Shown in pieces: positions 14,586-21,817 of a DNA stretch of 64,000 bases. A model generated the notes under the pieces. It did no database searches. It saw only the letters and a program-made list of their open reading frames with translations, and was not told where the DNA came from. The stretch is from assembly GCF_001889305.1 (NCBI RefSeq), contig NZ_CP013074.1, positions 620,001 to 684,000 on the forward strand. Direction: 5' to 3'. Source of the DNA: Dehalococcoides mccartyi. Lineage in GTDB: Bacteria; Chloroflexota; Dehalococcoidia; Dehalococcoidales; Dehalococcoidaceae. How positions within the stretch are numbered: position 1 is the stretch's first letter; each line of letters starts with the position of its first letter. A program made the translations under genes and the position numbers.

Positions 14586-15215
14586 ATGACAAAATCAACC
14601 AAAGTCATTCCGCCTTTTCCCCAGATGACGATAGGCGTTATGGGGTCAGCCGGCGGGAATATGACTGAAGAAACCAAAAAGAGTTTGCGTTGTTTAGGTG
14701 AGTGCATAGCTAAGCGTAAACATGTGCTTATTACCGGTGCCTGCCCCGGTATGCCCCATGAAACCGTGCTGGGGGCTAAAGAAGAAGGCGGGGTAGTGGT
14801 AGGCATTTCCCCGGCCCTGAATCTGGAAGAGCATGTAGAAAAATATCATTCTCCCACCCGTGGCTACGACGCCATTATATATACCGGCTCCGGCCTGATG
14901 GGGAGGGAAATTGAAAATATCCGCAGTTGTGACGTAGTGATATTTGCCGGAGGCAGGTCCGGCACTCTGGGTGAGTTTGCCATAGCTTATGACGAAGGTA
15001 AGGTTATAGGCGTACTTCGGGGAAGCGGCGGTATTGCTGACCATCTGGACAAGATTATTTCCATGGTGGACAAGGAAACCGGTGCCCGGGTCTACTACGA
15101 ATCAGACCCGTATAAATTGCTGGATGTGCTGGAAGCCGTCTATCGGGAACGCATTTTCCCCAGGCATAAACGTTTGATGGAAAATAATGATCCTGATGGC
15201 ATGTCTGACGGTTAG
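14586..15215 (+). CDS. LOG/SLOG-family nucleotide-binding protein
   Basis: This 209-residue Rossmann-like protein has a glycine-rich start (IGVMGSAGGNM), a second glycine motif (VLITGACPGMPHE) and GGRSGTLGE at about residues 123-131. The last is a variant of the PGGxGTxxE motif of LOG (lysine decarboxylase-like) proteins. LOG enzymes release free bases from nucleoside monophosphates, and related SLOG proteins bind nucleotide ligands. Here the proline and one glycine of the motif are replaced, so phosphoribohydrolase activity is uncertain. It is transcribed alone. Confidence 0.75.
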   Translation: MTKSTKVIPPFPQMTIGVMGSAGGNMTEETKKSLRCLGECIAKRKHVLITGACPGMPHETVLGAKEEGGVVVGISPALNLEEHVEKYHSPTRGYDAIIYTGSGLMGREIENIRSCDVVIFAGGRSGTLGEFAIAYDEGKVIGVLRGSGGIADHLDKIISMVDKETGARVYYESDPYKLLDVLEAVYRERIFPRHKRLMENNDPDGMSDG

Positions 15216-15247
15216 TTGCTTCGTAGAACGGAAGAGACTTGATTATT

Positions 15248-15289
15248 CCCCCCCATTATCTTTAACAGGATACGGGGGTTTTATTTTGT
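15248..15289 (+). terminator. Probable intrinsic terminator after the LOG-like gene
   Basis: A C-run pairs with GGGGG, extended by TATC/GATA across a small internal loop, and is followed by TTTTATTTT. The stem is imperfect but GC-rich. Confidence 0.65.
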
Positions 15290-15348: not shown

Positions 15349-15377
15349 TTGACTAATCAAAAATACTGGAGTAAACT
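15349..15377 (+). promoter_or_regulatory. Promoter of the btu-cbiZ-cbiB-cobD operon
   Basis: TTGACT (15349-15354) and TAAACT (15372-15377) are 17 bp apart. The expected transcript start, near 15384, is 14 bases before the first riboswitch stem P1. No comparable promoter is visible between the two riboswitches. Confidence 0.6.
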
Positions 15378-15397
15378 AAAATTTAGTTGAATAAATC

Positions 15398-15536
15398 AAC
15401 GGGGACTATGAGTGCAAGACCGGTGTGAAGCCGTCGCAGTACCGCCTACTGTAACCGCAGGGGATACCTTCGGGAGCCAGAACCTCAAACCCCGTTTACC
15501 GGGTACTCCGCGGAATAGGGAGGGTAGTCATTTTAA
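15398..15536 (+). promoter_or_regulatory. Cobalamin riboswitch-like element 1 (class II type)
   Basis: The closing stem P1 pairs AACGGGG (15398-15404) with CCCCGTT (15490-15496). Inside it are the conserved core GGTGTGAAGCCG and the L5 hairpin CAGTA-CCGCC-TACTG, then GAGCCAGAACCTC-type bases (AGCCAGAACCT). After P1 a second hairpin presents GCGG in its loop (CTCCGCGGAATAGGGAG), complementary to CCGC in L5. This is the L5-L13 kissing contact of class II cobalamin riboswitches. A strong terminator hairpin begins 9 bases later. It lies far upstream of btuF and shares architecture with element 2. Confidence 0.85.
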
Positions 15537-15544
15537 ATGGCTTA

Positions 15545-15579
15545 AATACCTTTGTCCGATGAGGCAGAGGTATTTTTTG
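15545..15579 (+). terminator. Terminator between the two riboswitch elements
   Basis: AATACCTTTG (15545-15554) pairs with CAGAGGTATT (15565-15574) over 10 bp with one G-U, followed by TTTTTGT-like bases. It is the likely expression platform of riboswitch element 1, ending transcription before element 2 when corrinoid is bound, although a ligand-independent terminator is also possible. Confidence 0.75.
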
Positions 15580-15615
15580 TGTCTGGTAGGTTGTAAATGT
15601 ATCTAACAGGGCCTT

Positions 15616-15741
15616 GAACTTTGGGTGCAAGCTCGGTGCAATTCCGGCGCAGTACCGCCTGCTGTAAGGGGTAAATACCCTGAAGTCAGAACCTCAAAGT
15701 TCGTTTATAAAGGCTCTCCGCGGTAAGAGGAGGTATGGCCA
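15616..15741 (+). promoter_or_regulatory. Cobalamin riboswitch-like element 2 (class II type, translational layout)
   Basis: P1 pairs GAACTTTG (15616-15623) with CAAAGTTC (15695-15702). The core CTCGGTGCAATTCCG and the L5 hairpin CAGTA-CCGCC-TGCTG follow. The downstream hairpin has GCGG in its loop, able to kiss L5, and its 3' arm contains GAGGAGG, a consensus ribosome site. This is the layout of class II riboswitches that hide the ribosome site. The site it would control opens only a tiny reading frame at 15735/15741, not btuF. Confidence 0.85.
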
Positions 15742-15758
15742 TGCAGAAAAACTTGTAA
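15741..15758 (+). other. Micro reading frame directly behind riboswitch element 2
   Basis: ATG-CAG-AAA-AAC-TTG-TAA lies 7 bases after the AGGAGG site; an in-frame ATG at 15735 would add two codons. The five-to-seven-residue peptide is too short to judge by codon use. It could be a leader peptide or a remnant. Confidence 0.35.
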
Positions 15759-15816
15759 CAGTAAGTAGCTTCGCCTGATATGTTGGTTCTCAATATTTAA
15801 AATGAATGGAGCAGTT

Positions 15817-16833
15817 ATGCTGGACAATATAAATAAAAAACTTAGCAGTAAAAGTGCTCGTCTGGGTACTACTGTTGCCGGTATTTTTCTGAGTTTGGTT
15901 TTATTGTTGGGTTTGGTGGGTGGCTGTAAAGCTGCTGATGATACCAATAATGATGACGAAAACCCTGTTGTAACCGAGGTAACTTATCCCTTAACTGTTA
16001 CTGACCAGCTGGGTAGAACTGTGGAGATTAAATCTGAACCACAGACCATAGTATCCCTTTCCCCCAGCAATACCGAAACGATTTATGCCATGGGTCTTGA
16101 AGATAAACTGGTGGGTGTAACTACTTACTGTAACTACCCAGAAGCTGCAGCAGCTAAACCTAAAGTAGGCGGTTTTTCAAATGTAGATGCTGAAGCGGTG
16201 ACTGCCATAGGACCTGATATTATTTTGGCATCCAATATCCATGCATCAACAGTTATCCCGCAGCTTGAACAGCTGGGGCTTACCGTAATAGCTATTTCTC
16301 CGGATAATCTGGAAGAGGTGCTGGAATCTATTGAGCTTATCGGCAAATGCCTTAATCAGGTTGAGAAAGCCAATTCACTGGTAGATGAGATGCAAACCCG
16401 TATTGATGCGGTAACATCCAAGGTTAAAAACCTGTCTGAAAGTCAGAAACCGCGTGTTTTATATATCGTTTGGCATGAACCTCTTATGAGCGTTGGTTCT
16501 ACTGCCTTCATAACTGGCTTGATTACTGCTGCCGGAGGCGTTAGTATTACTGCTGATTCTGCAGAATCTTATCCCACCATTAGCTTGGAAACAGTGCTTG
16601 GGGCTAACCCCCAGGTGGTAGTGGTTGGTACAGGCATGGGCTCAGGAGCTGATGCGCCGCTGCTTTTTATGCAGGATGAACCCCGTTTGGCTGATATTGA
16701 CGCCAGAATAAACGGCAATATATATAGTATCAATACAGACCTTATCGGCCGTACCGGCCCGCGGATAGTAGAGGCTCTGGAACAACTGGCTAAGATGCTT
16801 CACCCTGAAATATTTGGAGAATTTAGCGCGTAA
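15817..16833 (+). CDS. btuF: Corrinoid ABC transporter substrate-binding lipoprotein (BtuF-like)
   Basis: This 338-residue periplasmic-binding protein of the BtuF/FepB type starts with a long signal region and a lipobox LVGGC, so it should be membrane-anchored outside. The conserved segments LGRTVEIKSEPQTIVSLSPSNTETIYAMG and GGFSNVDAEAVTAIGPDIILA follow the BtuF pattern. The ATG at 15802 is in frame, but the ATG at 15817 has GGAG five bases upstream and is preferred. Corrinoid as ligand is inferred from the riboswitches in front and the btuCD, cbiZ and cob genes behind. It ends 1 base into a possible long start of the permease gene. Confidence 0.92.
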   Translation: MLDNINKKLSSKSARLGTTVAGIFLSLVLLLGLVGGCKAADDTNNDDENPVVTEVTYPLTVTDQLGRTVEIKSEPQTIVSLSPSNTETIYAMGLEDKLVGVTTYCNYPEAAAAKPKVGGFSNVDAEAVTAIGPDIILASNIHASTVIPQLEQLGLTVIAISPDNLEEVLESIELIGKCLNQVEKANSLVDEMQTRIDAVTSKVKNLSESQKPRVLYIVWHEPLMSVGSTAFITGLITAAGGVSITADSAESYPTISLETVLGANPQVVVVGTGMGSGADAPLLFMQDEPRLADIDARINGNIYSINTDLIGRTGPRIVEALEQLAKMLHPEIFGEFSA

Positions 16834-16842
16834 TGAATTCAG

Positions 16843-16870
16843 GTGGGGCAGGTGATATCACCTGCCCCAC
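16843..16870 (+). terminator. Perfect GC-rich palindrome between btuF and btuC
   Basis: GTGGGGCAGGTGAT and its exact complement meet without a loop, a 28-base perfect palindrome, followed by AGTTTTG. It looks like a partial terminator or a processing stem that would lower expression of the downstream transporter genes relative to btuF. Its presence argues that the permease gene does not start at 16833. Confidence 0.6.
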
Positions 16871-16886
16871 AGTTTTGCGGGTAAGA

Positions 16887-17978
16887 ATGGGTGTTAATAC
16901 AAATCTGAATAAGGAAAACTGCCCGGCAGTTCCCAGCGGTATGCACCCCCACTGGAGGGGACGAATTATTGCTATGGCCGGATTATTTGGACTACTGCTT
17001 TTGGCGGCTATTTTTGCTATATCGTTCGGTTCGGTTGAAGTGCCGTTTTTTACCACTATATCTATCATGATTTCAAAAATTCCCTTCGTAAATATTATCC
17101 CGGACTGGACTGTAAACACACAAACCATTATTTGGGATATCCGTTTACCTAGGGTTTTGCTGGCCGGGGTGGTGGGTATGGCTTTGGCTGTAGCCGGGGC
17201 TACTTATCAGGGGCTTTTCCGAAACCCTCTGGCAGACCCGTATCTTATCGGTGTGGCACAAGGTGCAGCCGTAGGCGCAGTATTGGGGTTGATACTTGGT
17301 ATTGGTTTTGATGTTCTGGGTATTTTTACTACGCCATTGTTTGCTTTTGCTGGGGCTTTCGGGGCGGTAGGGGTAGTGTATATGCTTGCCAGAGTGGGAA
17401 ACCGCCTGACTGTGACTACCTTGATACTGGCCGGTGTGGCGCTGGGGTCATTCCTTACGGCTATTGTATCGTATCTTATTACGGTTAGCGGTGACAAGAT
17501 TCACTCTGTTATGTTTTGGCTGATGGGTAGTTTTTCCATGGCCGGCTGGGAGAGTGTGAAGATAGCAATACCTATCGTAATCATAGGTACTCTGGTTATA
17601 CTCCTGTTTGCCCGTTCGCTGAATCTTATCCAGCTGGGTGAGGAGCAGGCTCAGGAACTGGGAGTGGATGTAGAACGAATGAAGATTATCCTCCTTACGG
17701 CGGCTACCCTGATAACAGCCGCGGCGGTATCTTTCGTGGGTATTATCGGTTTTGTGGGTATTATTGTTCCCCATGCCGTGAGACTGATCTGGGGGGCAGA
17801 CTACCGTTTTCTGCTGCCGCTTTCGGCTCTGGTGGGGGCGGTCTTTATGATAATGGCTGATATCGCTTCCCGTACTCTGGTTGCTCCCAATGAAATTCCG
17901 GTAGGGGCTATTACGGCTCTGGTAGGTGCGCCCTTTTTCCTGTATTTGCTTAGAAAACGCACTCGAATGCTCTTTTAG
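16887..17978 (+). CDS. btuC: Corrinoid ABC transporter permease (BtuC-like, FecCD family)
   Basis: This 363-residue protein has a hydrophobic pattern of about ten membrane segments. The FecCD signatures WDIRLPRVLLAGVVGMALAVAG-type (LPRVLLAGVVG) and NPLADPYLIGVAQGA are clear, as is GFVGIIVPHAVR before the last helices, which contacts the ATPase. The frame is open from 16833, but that start would run through a 28-base palindrome, so the ATG at 16887 is preferred; an ATG at 16941 is the other candidate. It couples BtuF to the BtuD ATPase encoded 11 bases later. Confidence 0.92.
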   Translation: MGVNTNLNKENCPAVPSGMHPHWRGRIIAMAGLFGLLLLAAIFAISFGSVEVPFFTTISIMISKIPFVNIIPDWTVNTQTIIWDIRLPRVLLAGVVGMALAVAGATYQGLFRNPLADPYLIGVAQGAAVGAVLGLILGIGFDVLGIFTTPLFAFAGAFGAVGVVYMLARVGNRLTVTTLILAGVALGSFLTAIVSYLITVSGDKIHSVMFWLMGSFSMAGWESVKIAIPIVIIGTLVILLFARSLNLIQLGEEQAQELGVDVERMKIILLTAATLITAAAVSFVGIIGFVGIIVPHAVRLIWGADYRFLLPLSALVGAVFMIMADIASRTLVAPNEIPVGAITALVGAPFFLYLLRKRTRMLF

Positions 17979-17989
17979 GTATATGAAAA

Positions 17990-18817
17990 ATGTTTGAACT
18001 TGAAGTAAGAGATGTAACCCTGGCATATGGTCCGGTTGATGTTCTGCGGAATGTCAGCTTTAAGACCATGCCGGGTGAGATGATTGGACTAGTGGGACCG
18101 AATGGTTCAGGCAAATCTACCCTGATAAAGTCTTTGGCCAGAGTAATAGAACCGCGTCTGGGCAATATTTATATAAACGGGCGTAATTCACGTTCCATAC
18201 CCCGTCTGGAACTGGCTAAGATGGTAGGGGTTGTCCCCCAGATACCTGTACTTCCCAGTGCTTTTACTGCCTTTGAGATTGTACTAATGGGGCGTAATCC
18301 ACATATGGGTACTTTTCAGTATGAAAGCCACAAAGATATTGCAATTGCCTGGGAGGCTTTGAAAAGGGCGGGTGTGCTGCATCTGGCTGAACGCCAGATA
18401 GGGGAGCTTTCCGGCGGGGAGATACAGAGTGTGGTTATTGCCCGTTCCTTGTGCCAGAAAACCGAAGCAATTTTGCTGGATGAGCCTACTTCCAACCTTG
18501 ATATAGGCCGTCAGATAGAGATACTTGACCTTATAAAGTCTGAGTGCCGTGAACGGAATATTACCGTAATCGCCGCCTTGCATGACCTTAATCTGGCTGC
18601 TCATTATTGTGAGAGGCTGATACTCATTGATAATAATGGAATTCATGCGGATGGCAGTCCGGTTGAAGTAATAACTACAGATAATATAAGCCGTGTTTAC
18701 GGCCCCGGCAGTTATGTTCATACCCATCCCTTAAGCGGTCTTCCGGCAGTATTGCCGCGTTTGGGTAATATCCGCTGTAATACAAATGGTGAAAAGGGAG
18801 GCACGGGTGCCCACTGA
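17990..18817 (+). CDS. btuD: Corrinoid ABC transporter ATP-binding protein (BtuD-like)
   Basis: The 275-residue ATPase shows the Walker A motif VGPNGSGKSTLIK, Q-loop VVPQIP, signature LSGGEIQ, Walker B ILLDEPTSNLD and switch histidine in AALHDLN. The signature is followed by SVVIARSL as in FecE/BtuD-type proteins. It lies in an uninterrupted operon between the permease and cbiZ and overlaps the latter. Confidence 0.92.
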   Translation: MFELEVRDVTLAYGPVDVLRNVSFKTMPGEMIGLVGPNGSGKSTLIKSLARVIEPRLGNIYINGRNSRSIPRLELAKMVGVVPQIPVLPSAFTAFEIVLMGRNPHMGTFQYESHKDIAIAWEALKRAGVLHLAERQIGELSGGEIQSVVIARSLCQKTEAILLDEPTSNLDIGRQIEILDLIKSECRERNITVIAALHDLNLAAHYCERLILIDNNGIHADGSPVEVITTDNISRVYGPGSYVHTHPLSGLPAVLPRLGNIRCNTNGEKGGTGAH

Positions 18818-19577
18818 GAAAATAAATATACGGACTGTTGCTGAATTTCACGGCATAAAGGCAGAGGTTATTAAGCACGAGGTCTGGGGTGTTCCCGCCA
18901 ATGCTTTAGTGGTTACTTTTCCCGAAGAACGGCGGGCACTTTCCGGCAGGCAGGGTTACCGCAAAGTAAAGGCAGTTTGCAATATTTATTTGCCGGATGC
19001 TATCTGGCCGCGTCTGCATAATGATAAATTAAGCTGGAATGGCTATTACCGTCAGGTTTTTTCCAAAGCCCTGAGTGCTATAGGCATTCCCCTTTCCAAA
19101 GTGCTGGTTTTATCCACCGGGGTTACCATGGATCATCTGGCCTTCCATGAGGAAAAACAGGGTGATTTGTGGGTGGCGGTTCTGGCTACTGCCGGGGTGG
19201 AGTCTAATGCCTTACGCATTGGGCAGGATAAGTCTTCGGGGATTGACCGCAACGGCAAGTTTAAACCCTTCGGCACTATAAATACTATTATTCTTACCAG
19301 TGAAAGCCTGCCGCAGTCTGCTCTGGCTTCCTGTTTTATAACCGCTACCGAGGCAAAGACTATCGCTTTGGATGAACTGGGTGTTATGAGTGCTTATACC
19401 CCCGGCCTAAAAGCCAGCGGCACTGGTACTGACCAGATAGCGGCAGTTTCAGGCACAGGTGATAAGGCAACCTACGTGGGCGGGCATACATTGCTGGGCG
19501 AACTTATGGGGCGGAGTGTTACCCTGGCCATAAAAGAAGCCCTGACCAAGCGTATTGCCAGCAGAAAAGGGCATTAG
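18807..19577 (+). CDS. cbiZ: Adenosylcobinamide amidohydrolase CbiZ
   Basis: The 256-residue protein matches CbiZ, which removes the aminopropanol tail (or the whole nucleotide loop, in bacterial versions acting on pseudo-B12) from imported corrinoids to give cobyric acid. Family segments seen are VLSTGVTMDHLAF, VLATAGVESNALRIG, GTINTIILTSESL and ATEAKTIALDELGV. The open frame begins at 18786, but the GTG at 18807 has GGGAGG five bases before it and is preferred; it overlaps btuD by 11 bases. Its place between uptake and loop-assembly genes fits corrinoid remodelling. Confidence 0.9.
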   Translation: MPTEKINIRTVAEFHGIKAEVIKHEVWGVPANALVVTFPEERRALSGRQGYRKVKAVCNIYLPDAIWPRLHNDKLSWNGYYRQVFSKALSAIGIPLSKVLVLSTGVTMDHLAFHEEKQGDLWVAVLATAGVESNALRIGQDKSSGIDRNGKFKPFGTINTIILTSESLPQSALASCFITATEAKTIALDELGVMSAYTPGLKASGTGTDQIAAVSGTGDKATYVGGHTLLGELMGRSVTLAIKEALTKRIASRKGH

Positions 19578-19578
19578 G

Positions 19579-20505
19579 TTGGAAGTCCTTTTTATATTCC
19601 TGCTGGCGCTCATTATTGATTTGGTTTTTGGAGACCCGCCTAATGCTTTTCATCCGGTAGCCTATATGGGCAGGGTAATTGCCTTTTTTGAGCGGGCAGG
19701 GTTTAAGGGCGGCCGGGTCTACCAGTTTGTTTACGGTATAGTCATGGTTTTTATTGCCATGGCACTTTTTTTTATACCGGTATATTTTCTGCTAGGCTGG
19801 CTGCATGGGGTAAACAGTGTAGTTTACATAATAGTGTCGGCCATTTTACTCAAGATGTGTTTTACGGTAACCGGCTTGCGTAAGGCAGCTTTGCTGATTA
19901 AGCAATTGTTAGAAAAAGATGACATTGCCCAGGCCCGTTTTGAGCTCCGCTCACTGGTTTCTCGTGATACCTCCAAACTGCCTCAGCCCAAACTGGTGGC
20001 GGCGGCGGTGGAATCTGTGGCGGAGAGTATCGGAGACGGGTTTGTGTCGCCGCTCTTCTTCTTTCTGATATTCGGCGTGCCCGGTGTTATGGCCTACCGG
20101 GTAGTGAGCACCTTTGACAGCATGGTGGGTTACCGCGGTAAATACGAACATCTGGGCAAGTTTGCTGCCAGATTTGATGATGTGCTTAATTTTATTCCGG
20201 CCAGACTGTCTGCCTTGTGCATACTTGTGTCCAGCCTCTTTGGGCGTTACAGCCCGGCAGGGGCATGGCGGATAATGTGGCGTGACCATGCCAAGACCCA
20301 AAGCCCCAATGCCGGCTGGCCAATGGCGACTGCAGCCGGTGCCCTTGAAGTTTGTCTGGAAAAAGTGGGACACTACTCTTTAGGGGATAATATCAGGGAG
20401 CTTGTTCCCCAAACTATCAGCCGTTCGCTGCTGCTTATAAACAGTGCGGCCTTTATCTGGGTCTTAATAAGCGCGGGAGTGATTTATTTTGTCCATATCG
20501 CCTAA
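19579..20505 (+). CDS. cbiB: Adenosylcobinamide-phosphate synthase CbiB
   Basis: This integral membrane protein of 308 residues joins cobyric acid to aminopropanol phosphate, rebuilding the side chain removed by CbiZ. The typical opening LIIDLVFGDPPNAFHPVAYMGR, the SLVSRDT motif, the FSP-like segment VSPLFFFLIFGVPGVMAYRVVSTFDSM and MWRDHAKTQSPNAGWPMA are present. No ATG is available near the start; TTG at 19579, one base after the cbiZ stop, gives the family N-terminus with AAAGGG upstream. A TTG at 19555 is possible. The gene overlaps cobD by 17 bases. Confidence 0.9.
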   Translation: MEVLFIFLLALIIDLVFGDPPNAFHPVAYMGRVIAFFERAGFKGGRVYQFVYGIVMVFIAMALFFIPVYFLLGWLHGVNSVVYIIVSAILLKMCFTVTGLRKAALLIKQLLEKDDIAQARFELRSLVSRDTSKLPQPKLVAAAVESVAESIGDGFVSPLFFFLIFGVPGVMAYRVVSTFDSMVGYRGKYEHLGKFAARFDDVLNFIPARLSALCILVSSLFGRYSPAGAWRIMWRDHAKTQSPNAGWPMATAAGALEVCLEKVGHYSLGDNIRELVPQTISRSLLLINSAAFIWVLISAGVIYFVHIA

Positions 20506-21595
20506 GCCGCAGGTAGAAAAATTAAAGCCGTGTTATCACGGCGGGCCGAACTATGCCGAGCTTAGAAAACTTGGTATCAGCCCGGATGCGATTATGGATT
20601 TTTCGGTAAGTTCAAATCCCTATCCGGCACCTGCAGAGATAAAAGAAGCCCTGTGTTCCTTGGTTATTGACCGCTACCCTGACTCTGATTCTGTCGAACT
20701 CAAAGAATATCTGGCGGGCAGGCTTTCGCTTAAGCCCGAAAACCTGATTGTAGGCAGCGGCTCTATGGAAATTATCCGTCTGGTTGCCGGGGCATATTTT
20801 GGGGTGGGGGATACGGTTTTAATACTTAAACCCACCTTCGGGGAATATGAACTGGCAGCAGAAGTGGCCGGTGCGGATATAATTGAGCAGTGGGCAGACG
20901 AAGAGAGCGGATTTAAGTTTGATTTGGATTTAACCTGCCGCATTATTAAAAAACACCAGCCCAAAGCGGTATTTATCTGCAATCCCAATAACCCTACCGG
21001 GGTTTATCTTTCCAAAGCGGATATTGAAAAAGTGCTGAGCGTCTGCACTGATACCCTGCTGGTGCTGGACGAAGCTTATATAGCCTTTGCTGAAGACTGC
21101 TGGAAAGCAGCAGATTTGCTTGAAACGGGCAATATTATAGTTATCCGCTCTATGACCAAAGACTGCGCTTTGGCCGGGCTGAGGTTAGGTTATGGCATGG
21201 CCTCGGCGGAGATAATAAACAACCTTAAAAAGGTCTGTCCGCCGTGGAATGTTAATGCTGCCGCCCAAAAAGCAGGATTAGTTTGCTTACGTCACCCCAG
21301 CTATCTAGCGGAATCTGAGAAAAAGATAAAGGCCTCTAAGGAGTATCTCAGGCAGGGTTTTGCAGGCTTGGGCTTTAGAGTACTGCCCTCCGAGACCAAT
21401 TTTTTCCTGATGAAAGTGAAAAAGGCCGCAGATTTCCGTTTGGCACTCCTGAAGCACGGGCTTATGGTGCGGGACTGCACTTCATTCGGCTTGCCGCAGT
21501 ATGTCCGCATTGCTCCCCGCACCCAAAGTGAGTGTGAACGCCTGCTTGCGGTTGCGGCTGAATTGAAAAGTAAGTCTGAGATTTATCCAGCCTGA
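20489..21595 (+). CDS. cobD: Threonine-phosphate decarboxylase CobD
   Basis: This PLP-dependent class I/II aminotransferase-fold protein (368 residues) resembles CobD, which makes (R)-1-amino-2-propanol O-phosphate from threonine phosphate for CbiB. The opening KPCYHGGPNYAELRKLGI, the motif DFSVSSNPYP, IFICNPNNPTG-type (VFICNPNNPTGVYL) and the PLP lysine region RSMTKDCALAGLRLGY are visible. It is distinguished from histidinol-phosphate aminotransferase (HisC) mainly by the HGG opening and by its place after cbiB. The start is TTG. Confidence 0.87.
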   Translation: MSISPKPQVEKLKPCYHGGPNYAELRKLGISPDAIMDFSVSSNPYPAPAEIKEALCSLVIDRYPDSDSVELKEYLAGRLSLKPENLIVGSGSMEIIRLVAGAYFGVGDTVLILKPTFGEYELAAEVAGADIIEQWADEESGFKFDLDLTCRIIKKHQPKAVFICNPNNPTGVYLSKADIEKVLSVCTDTLLVLDEAYIAFAEDCWKAADLLETGNIIVIRSMTKDCALAGLRLGYGMASAEIINNLKKVCPPWNVNAAAQKAGLVCLRHPSYLAESEKKIKASKEYLRQGFAGLGFRVLPSETNFFLMKVKKAADFRLALLKHGLMVRDCTSFGLPQYVRIAPRTQSECERLLAVAAELKSKSEIYPA

Positions 21596-21624
21596 TTGAC
21601 TGGCAGGGTTTTGTCTGATATAGT
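21596..21624 (+). promoter_or_regulatory. Promoter of the riboswitch-cobTSCU unit
   Basis: TTGACT (21596-21601) and TATAGT (21619-21624) are 17 bp apart, and TGA directly precedes the -10, giving an extended element. It begins immediately after the cobD stop. The expected start near 21631 coincides with the first base of riboswitch stem P1. Confidence 0.8.
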
Positions 21625-21630
21625 TTTTAA

Positions 21631-21798
21631 TGGTGATTAGTAAACGGAACACGGTTTGAATCCGTGGCGGTCCCGCCGCTGTAACCGGGGACTTTGGTTT
21701 CTTAAAGCACTTTTTGTGCGGCCACTGTCAGGGCAGTACCCTGATGGGAAGGGCGGAACCGGGGGATAATCCGGAAGCCAGAAGACGTGTTAACACCA
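21631..21798 (+). promoter_or_regulatory. Cobalamin riboswitch 3 (class I, AdoCbl type)
   Basis: This is a classical, long cobalamin riboswitch. TGGTG at 21631 closes with CACCA at 21794-21798. The core reads CACGGTTTGAATCCGTGGCGGTCCCGCC-like bases (GGCGGTCCCGCCGCTGTAA), then GCCACTGTCAGGGCAG, GGGAAGG and GGAAGCCAGAAGAC, the B12 box region. It has the extra peripheral helices missing from elements 1 and 2. It is followed by a terminator and then cobT, so corrinoid should shut off the loop-assembly genes. Confidence 0.93.
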
Positions 21799-21817
21799 AA
21801 CCGGATACCTGATGGTA

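Follow-up and report, generated by a model that had tools for sequence, protein, structure and literature searches.

Why is one corrinoid-salvage operon preceded by two riboswitches of the same class, and on what does the second of them act? The question was raised by the leader of btuF in Dehalococcoides, a corrinoid auxotroph whose reductive dehalogenases require corrinoids. The window, i.e. the whole stretch of DNA analysed here, comprises 64,000 nucleotides of Dehalococcoides mccartyi (contig NZ_CP013074.1), and its features are collected in Table 1. Read at the level of sequence, the leader contains two aptamers, an intrinsic terminator, a Shine-Dalgarno (SD) sequence enclosed in a P13 hairpin, a conserved open reading frame of five codons (mini-ORF) and a single promoter-like site. 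In what we regard as the probable reading, one transcript carries two B12-sensing OFF switches before btuF, and element 2 would act through translation of the mini-ORF.

Table 1. Features of the tandem leader and of the operon behind it (positions in the window)
Feature	Position	Strand	Remarks
Promoter-like site TTGACT-17-TAAACT	15349-15377	+	precedes element 1
Element 1, cobalamin riboswitch aptamer of class-II type with P13/L13	15385-15532 (full span in the summary of matches 15385-15538)	+	R2 covariance model
P1/P3 helix, element 1	15398-15404 with 15490-15496		
L5 CCGC, element 1	15442-15445		
L13 GCGG, element 1	15510-15513		opposite L5
Predicted antiterminator of element 1	15510-15558	+	fold -13.9 kcal/mol, z -2.25
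Intrinsic terminator and U run of element 1	15544-15580 (hairpin 15544-15575)	+	-15.4 kcal/mol, z -4.9
Element 2, cobalamin riboswitch aptamer of class-II type with P13/L13	15595-15740 (full span in the summary of matches 15595-15749)	+	R2 covariance model
P1/P3 helix, element 2	15616-15623 with 15695-15702		
L5 CCGC, element 2	15655-15658		
P13 of element 2	15712-15740	+	fold -10.7 kcal/mol, z -1.3
L13 GCGG, element 2	15720-15723		opposite L5
GAGGAGG SD of mini-ORF	15727-15733	+	7 nt ahead of ATG; anti-SD duplex -13.4 kcal/mol
Mini-ORF ATG CAG AAA AAC TTG TAA (MQKNL-stop)	15741-15758	+	conserved; length kept in 18 families
btuF (corrinoid-binding protein)	15817-16833	+	PF01497 E 2e-37; BtuF model E 2.5e-31; own SD GGAG 15808-15811
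btuC	16833-17978	+	NF007081 E 4.5e-98; PF01032
btuD	17990-18817	+	NF007082 E 1.5e-67
cbiZ	18786-19577	+	PF01955 E 3.5e-44
cbiB	19555-20505	+	TIGR00380 E 3.4e-76, over cut-off
cobD-like threonine-phosphate decarboxylase / hisC-family aminotransferase	20489-21595	+	TIGR01141 4.1e-81, TIGR01140 4e-76, both under cut-offs
Third cobalamin riboswitch, class I (RF00174), before cobT-cobS-cobC	21617-21808	+	75.2 bits vs gathering 31.5

Two covariance models were used: R1 was trained on 34 elements and R2 on 19 elements, these last all from outside family f1 (which we take to be Dehalococcoides plus Dehalogenimonas), the members of that family being omitted to avoid circularity. R2 scored element 1 at 94.2 bits (E 8.8e-23) and element 2 at 82.2 bits (E 1.1e-19), with a class-I riboswitch as the next-best match in the window at 20.9 bits. 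A preliminary description of this DNA had proposed two class-II-type cobalamin riboswitches in tandem, each with its own P1 stem, in front of btuFCD-cbiZ-cbiB-cobD. All three parts hold: both elements, not just one, are matched by the model, each has its own P1/P3 helix, and the gene families were confirmed by profile matches. Among the Rfam families, RF01482 (AdoCbl) scored best and aligned over the full length of both elements, with 36.8 bits for element 2 and 28.5 bits for element 1 (genome-wide E for the two elements 2.4e-5 and 0.002); the gathering score of 50 was not reached, so a default Rfam scan misses both. For element 2, RF01689 (AdoCbl-II, class IIa) gave 17.6 bits vs a gathering threshold of 36.5, and RF00174 (Cobalamin, class I) a partial match of 18.7 bits vs 31.5; element 1 was listed with neither. 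Covariance models thus place both elements in the cobalamin riboswitch superfamily (Rfam clan CL00101). The P4-P6 core, L5 and the downstream hairpin are like those of RF01482 / class IIb, whereas J3/4 and J6/3 read GCAAG and GAACC here and GGAAG and GGUC in the family consensus. Among 34 relatives, covariation was found for 6/6 pairs of P6, and the CCGC/GCGG match of L5 and L13 is present in 34/34. An L5-L13 kissing contact is consistent with this match but unproven by covariation, because the match is invariant.

The promoter-like site before element 1 is conserved in two other Dehalococcoides species, and in Dehalogenimonas as well as in genomes G035 and G059 element 1 is preceded by a site with a perfect TTGACA. 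By sequence scan, no promoter-like site was found between the elements in any tandem locus checked. This supports the single promoter and single transcript of the preliminary description; at all other tandem loci checked, too, a promoter-like site stands only ahead of element 1. A weak promoter-like site (9/12, near the chance level of the scan) between mini-ORF and btuF was seen in the window only and is not conserved. Upstream, a SLOG-family gene (14586-15215) is followed by a hairpin resembling a terminator (15221-15286; stem CCCC/GGGG, T-rich sequence behind it), which may separate this gene from the riboswitch transcript.

Behind element 1, the rho-independent terminator described earlier was found again, a strong one, and it is kept in two other Dehalococcoides species. 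In the predicted antiterminator, which would form before the 3' arm of the terminator has been transcribed, CGGA of L13 (15511-15514) pairs with UCCG (15555-15558) and AGGG with CCUU of the terminator 5' arm, enclosing a 7-bp hairpin (15526-15542); the pairing letters are unchanged in two other Dehalococcoides species, and pairing of the L13/P13 strand with the terminator arm has a z of -1.8. Since the antiterminator occupies the kissing loop, kissing and antitermination would be mutually exclusive. With corrinoid, L5-L13 kissing would hold P13 and block the antiterminator, so that the terminator forms and transcription stops; without ligand, L13 and the 3' strand of P13 would pair with the terminator 5' arm and transcription would continue.

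In P13 of element 2, CUCC (15716-15719) pairs with GGAG (15729-15732) and GGCU (15712-15715) with GGCC (15737-15740), and thus the SD and the stretch beside the start codon are closed; the hairpin alone is not more stable than its shuffles. The preliminary description had assigned the GAGGAGG of this element to a ribosome site in the last hairpin and had proposed a transcriptional gate followed by a translational-type gate. The position in the 3' strand of the last hairpin was confirmed, and the order of the gates and the sequestration of an SD are supported; the SD is, however, that of the five-codon ORF, and the second gate does not lie on the ribosome site of btuF, which has an SD of its own. 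The btuF start used here (15817; 15802 in the ORF list) is 58 nt from the mini-ORF stop and ~83 nt from the sequestered SD. Two other Dehalococcoides species encode the identical peptide MQKNL, one of them with two synonymous differences, and within the genus the 18 nt of the mini-ORF are 89-100% identical, the next 43 nt only 65-72%.

With an intrinsic terminator on element 1, a ribosome site in the output hairpin of element 2 and no promoter-like site between them, the leader has the layout of a bi-mechanism tandem. Enclosure of the SD in P13 is the form that a translational platform usually takes. SAM-II/SAM-V tandems have the same order, the first element carrying an intrinsic terminator and the second sequestering a ribosome site (PMC9481103). 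The leader might accordingly be read as a plain tandem of this type, in which element 1 stops transcription, element 2 directly lowers btuF translation and the mini-ORF is incidental. We consider this unlikely, since the sequestered SD is spaced for the mini-ORF and not for btuF, the ORF is conserved but the spacer is not, and the exact length of five codons recurs in 18 families. Moreover, the SAM tandem joins two aptamer classes and ends on the gene's own ribosome site, whereas here one class is used twice and the mini-ORF is the second target.

Mini-ORFs at the same place were compared across Dehalococcoidia. Dehalogenimonas encodes MCNTS (two genomes, one synonymous change), MFNTE and MFDAK, and G035 encodes MARET; the distances from mini-ORF stop to btuF in family f1 are 58, 58, 58, 52, 54, 59 and 59 nt. 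In a class-wide search, R1 matched in 208 of 393 genomes. A first set comprised 33 non-redundant elements (look-alikes removed, ATG 15-27 nt past the start of the L13 motif): exactly five codons were found in 14 of the 33, as compared with a mean of 1.4 and a maximum of 6 in 2000 shuffles, and exactly three codons in 6, while the other two frames gave 0 and 1 ORFs of length five. In an independent set from previously unused genomes of the order (12 new non-redundant elements with ATG), five codons were found in 7 (null mean 0.49, maximum 4, 5000 shuffles) and exactly three in 3. By manual count, the five-codon form stands after the last hairpin of the aptamer in 18 Dehalococcoidia families. 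Since the peptides vary between relatives and UGA, UAA and UAG stops all occur, it is the length that is conserved, not the peptide. For ten mini-ORF elements the translations of the downstream genes were inspected by eye: nine are BtuF-like and one is CbiB-like. In the Dehalogenimonas genomes G004 and G008, the element is the only such riboswitch before btuF, lacks a terminator and has no sequestered ribosome site other than that of the mini-ORF, which is therefore its only visible output. Eight loci of family f57 carry three-codon ORFs at the same place (ML[KRST] or MAS, all TAG-ended), each followed by a near-constant terminator.

To search for the layout elsewhere, one genome per species (84,980 species) was scanned for L13, GGAGG, ATG, four codons and a stop. 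The scan returned 66 matches, of which 9 are at a riboswitch of the same kind, all in Dehalococcoidia; the remainder had no recognisable cobalamin core upstream, in a scan that was tuned to the L13/SD letters of Dehalococcoidia and would miss other versions. When the phylum was searched with the model, no aptamer of equal strength turned up outside the class among the genomes sampled.

Most relatives have an intrinsic terminator directly behind the mini-ORF stop, its start lying some 17-26 nt from the A of the ATG. This is approximately where the leading edge of a ribosome positioned on the start codon would be expected. A leader ORF abutting a terminator, as a ribosome-mediated attenuator would have, is the layout of many relatives; in Dehalococcoidaceae (Dehalococcoides, Dehalogenimonas), the window included, element 2 has no terminator. 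Where a true GGAGG is combined with a five-codon ORF, no selected pairing joins the P13/L13 strand to the terminator arm (median z 0.0); G-run elements that lack an ORF do show it (median z -2.2). Pairing is also weaker in GGAGG elements with a mini-ORF of any length than in ORF-less G-run elements (Mann-Whitney P 1e-5, kinship uncorrected). The contrast fits a ribosome as antiterminator in the GGAGG group and RNA pairing in the G-run group.

At seven loci the start and stop of the mini-ORF lie in the two arms of a CAUGU..ACAUGA hairpin just before the terminator, which could be a pause or start-codon hairpin. As the 3' arm of UCAUGU..ACAUGA supplies the UGA stop, the constant length may at such loci be due in part to structure. 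Such hairpins, in which the stop is the complement of the start, occur in many relatives, and together with the strong direct antiterminators of the G-run elements they lend themselves to the view that the five-codon ORF is an untranslated by-product of a small, conserved hairpin that lies between P13 and the terminator and serves antitermination or pausing. This seems quite unlikely to us: five-codon ORFs without the hairpin, some ending in UAA or UAG, are found in several families, that of Dehalococcoides among them (MQKNL, MCNTS, MFNTE, MTKVR, MTRAP, MSGSP), a hairpin by itself leaves the reading frame free, and a near-perfect SD is present at good spacing.

Beyond the window, tandems were found in two further species of Dehalococcoides, in two genomes of Dehalogenimonas and in two from another family. 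The double leader with both riboswitches is itself present twice in the Dehalococcoides genome G002 (599-601 kb and 630-632 kb, 31 kb apart) and in one Dehalogenimonas, G010 (about 30 kb apart); in both genomes the copies are the same where compared. In Dehalococcoides, Dehalogenimonas and G035, the first copy has the terminator and the second the mini-ORF without the usual terminator; G059 has terminators on both. Elements 1 and 2 are 97% identical in each Dehalogenimonas tandem, 99% in G059, 90% in G035 and 65-76% in Dehalococcoides, and aptamer identity between genera is about 62-79%. It follows that the doublet arose more than once or that conversion keeps the copies alike.

These figures bear on two further explanations. 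Copies as similar as those of Dehalogenimonas and G059 would suit a pseudo-cooperative doublet, in which two elements for the same ligand steepen the response and the second platform has decayed, and 26 AdoCbl doublets are already known, classed in a review only as pseudo-cooperative (PMC9481103). The second platform has not decayed, however: its SD, start and stop have been conserved, unlike the remainder of its leader, which makes this explanation very unlikely. Steeper or two-stage repression by the tandem, one of the uses put forward in the preliminary description, is possible. Its other suggestion, that the two elements sense different corrinoid forms, could draw on the low identity within Dehalococcoides; it is not favoured and must be rated highly improbable, as the J3/4, L5 and J6/3 strands are the same in both cores and the nearly identical pairs in Dehalogenimonas and G059 argue against two ligands.

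We therefore return to one transcript with two OFF switches. It would start from the promoter-like site ahead of element 1 and pass both switches before btuF is reached; both elements would presumably bind a corrinoid. At element 2, bound ligand would keep P13 closed and the GAGGAGG of the mini-ORF hidden, and ribosomes would not load; without ligand, the mini-ORF would be translated. Where a terminator adjoins the mini-ORF, as in the wider family, its 5' arm would be covered by the ribosome there and transcription would continue. Because the second terminator is absent in Dehalococcoides and Dehalogenimonas, the effect on btuF would in these genera have to run via termination-reinitiation, which in family f1 would span 52-59 nt, via Rho, which is encoded in the genome, or via RNA stability; when folding was repeated with a ribosome on the mini-ORF, no clear gain in accessibility of the btuF SD was obtained. 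More tentatively, and with confidence a little short of even, we propose a B12 attenuator class of Dehalococcoidia, in which the riboswitch targets a minimal ORF of five or three codons in place of a gene's ribosome site or an antiterminator alone, the ribosome there is the antiterminator and ligand keeps ribosomes off; in Dehalococcoides this module would be paired with a purely RNA-based switch.

The class-I riboswitch between cobD and cobT gives the salvage cluster its own internal B12 control point; the genes behind it were identified by family matches as encoding CobT, CobS and CobC. Elsewhere in the same genome, a class-II-like cobalamin riboswitch with terminator (L172 97-244; genome 1398796-1398943) sits after a gene with a reductive dehalogenase domain and before a second cbiZ paralogue, and a class-I cobalamin riboswitch of 104 bits (L006 1501-1692; genome 217261-217452) precedes a zinc-type alcohol dehydrogenase-like gene. 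According to the account of Johnson 2009 given in PMC4285132, D. mccartyi cobalamin riboswitches respond to excess cyanocobalamin in transcriptional studies, which fits OFF switches.

Tandem AdoCbl riboswitches, bi-mechanism tandems and riboswitch control of a short upstream ORF are already known; the conserved mini-ORF output is new as far as the literature searched goes. In M. tuberculosis ppe2, a class IIb-variant cobalamin riboswitch is likewise coupled with a short upstream ORF (uORF), which must be translated if the downstream gene is to be expressed (Kipkorir 2024, PMC11260477). The ppe2 uORF, much longer than the mini-ORF, extends over the start of the gene (AUGA, termination-reinitiation), whereas here five codons stand 52-59 nt before btuF or are followed at once by a terminator; in the window, the mini-ORF additionally stands behind a second, transcriptional riboswitch. 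The Mg2+-sensing Mbox of M. tuberculosis pe20, with a uORF and Rho-dependent termination (PMC12810186), is similar in layout, as a translational platform acts on a small ORF and the outcome is transcriptional, but differs in ligand and aptamer, in its longer conserved ORF and in using Rho in place of an adjacent intrinsic terminator. A literature search that reached few subscription papers turned up neither an account of tandem B12 riboswitches from Dehalococcoides nor one of leader ORFs of five codons following a B12 riboswitch. The layout is easily missed, because annotation skips ORFs of five codons and Rfam scores the aptamers below threshold.

If the reading is true, the ORF behind the riboswitch, held at exactly five codons in 18 bacterial families, would offer a natural setting in which to study the coupling of ligand, ribosome and RNA polymerase in one attenuator. 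That the layout recurs across the class points to ribosomes on a very short leader gene as one component of the switch. As the reductive dehalogenases of this auxotroph need corrinoids, control of the salvage operon bears on bioremediation.
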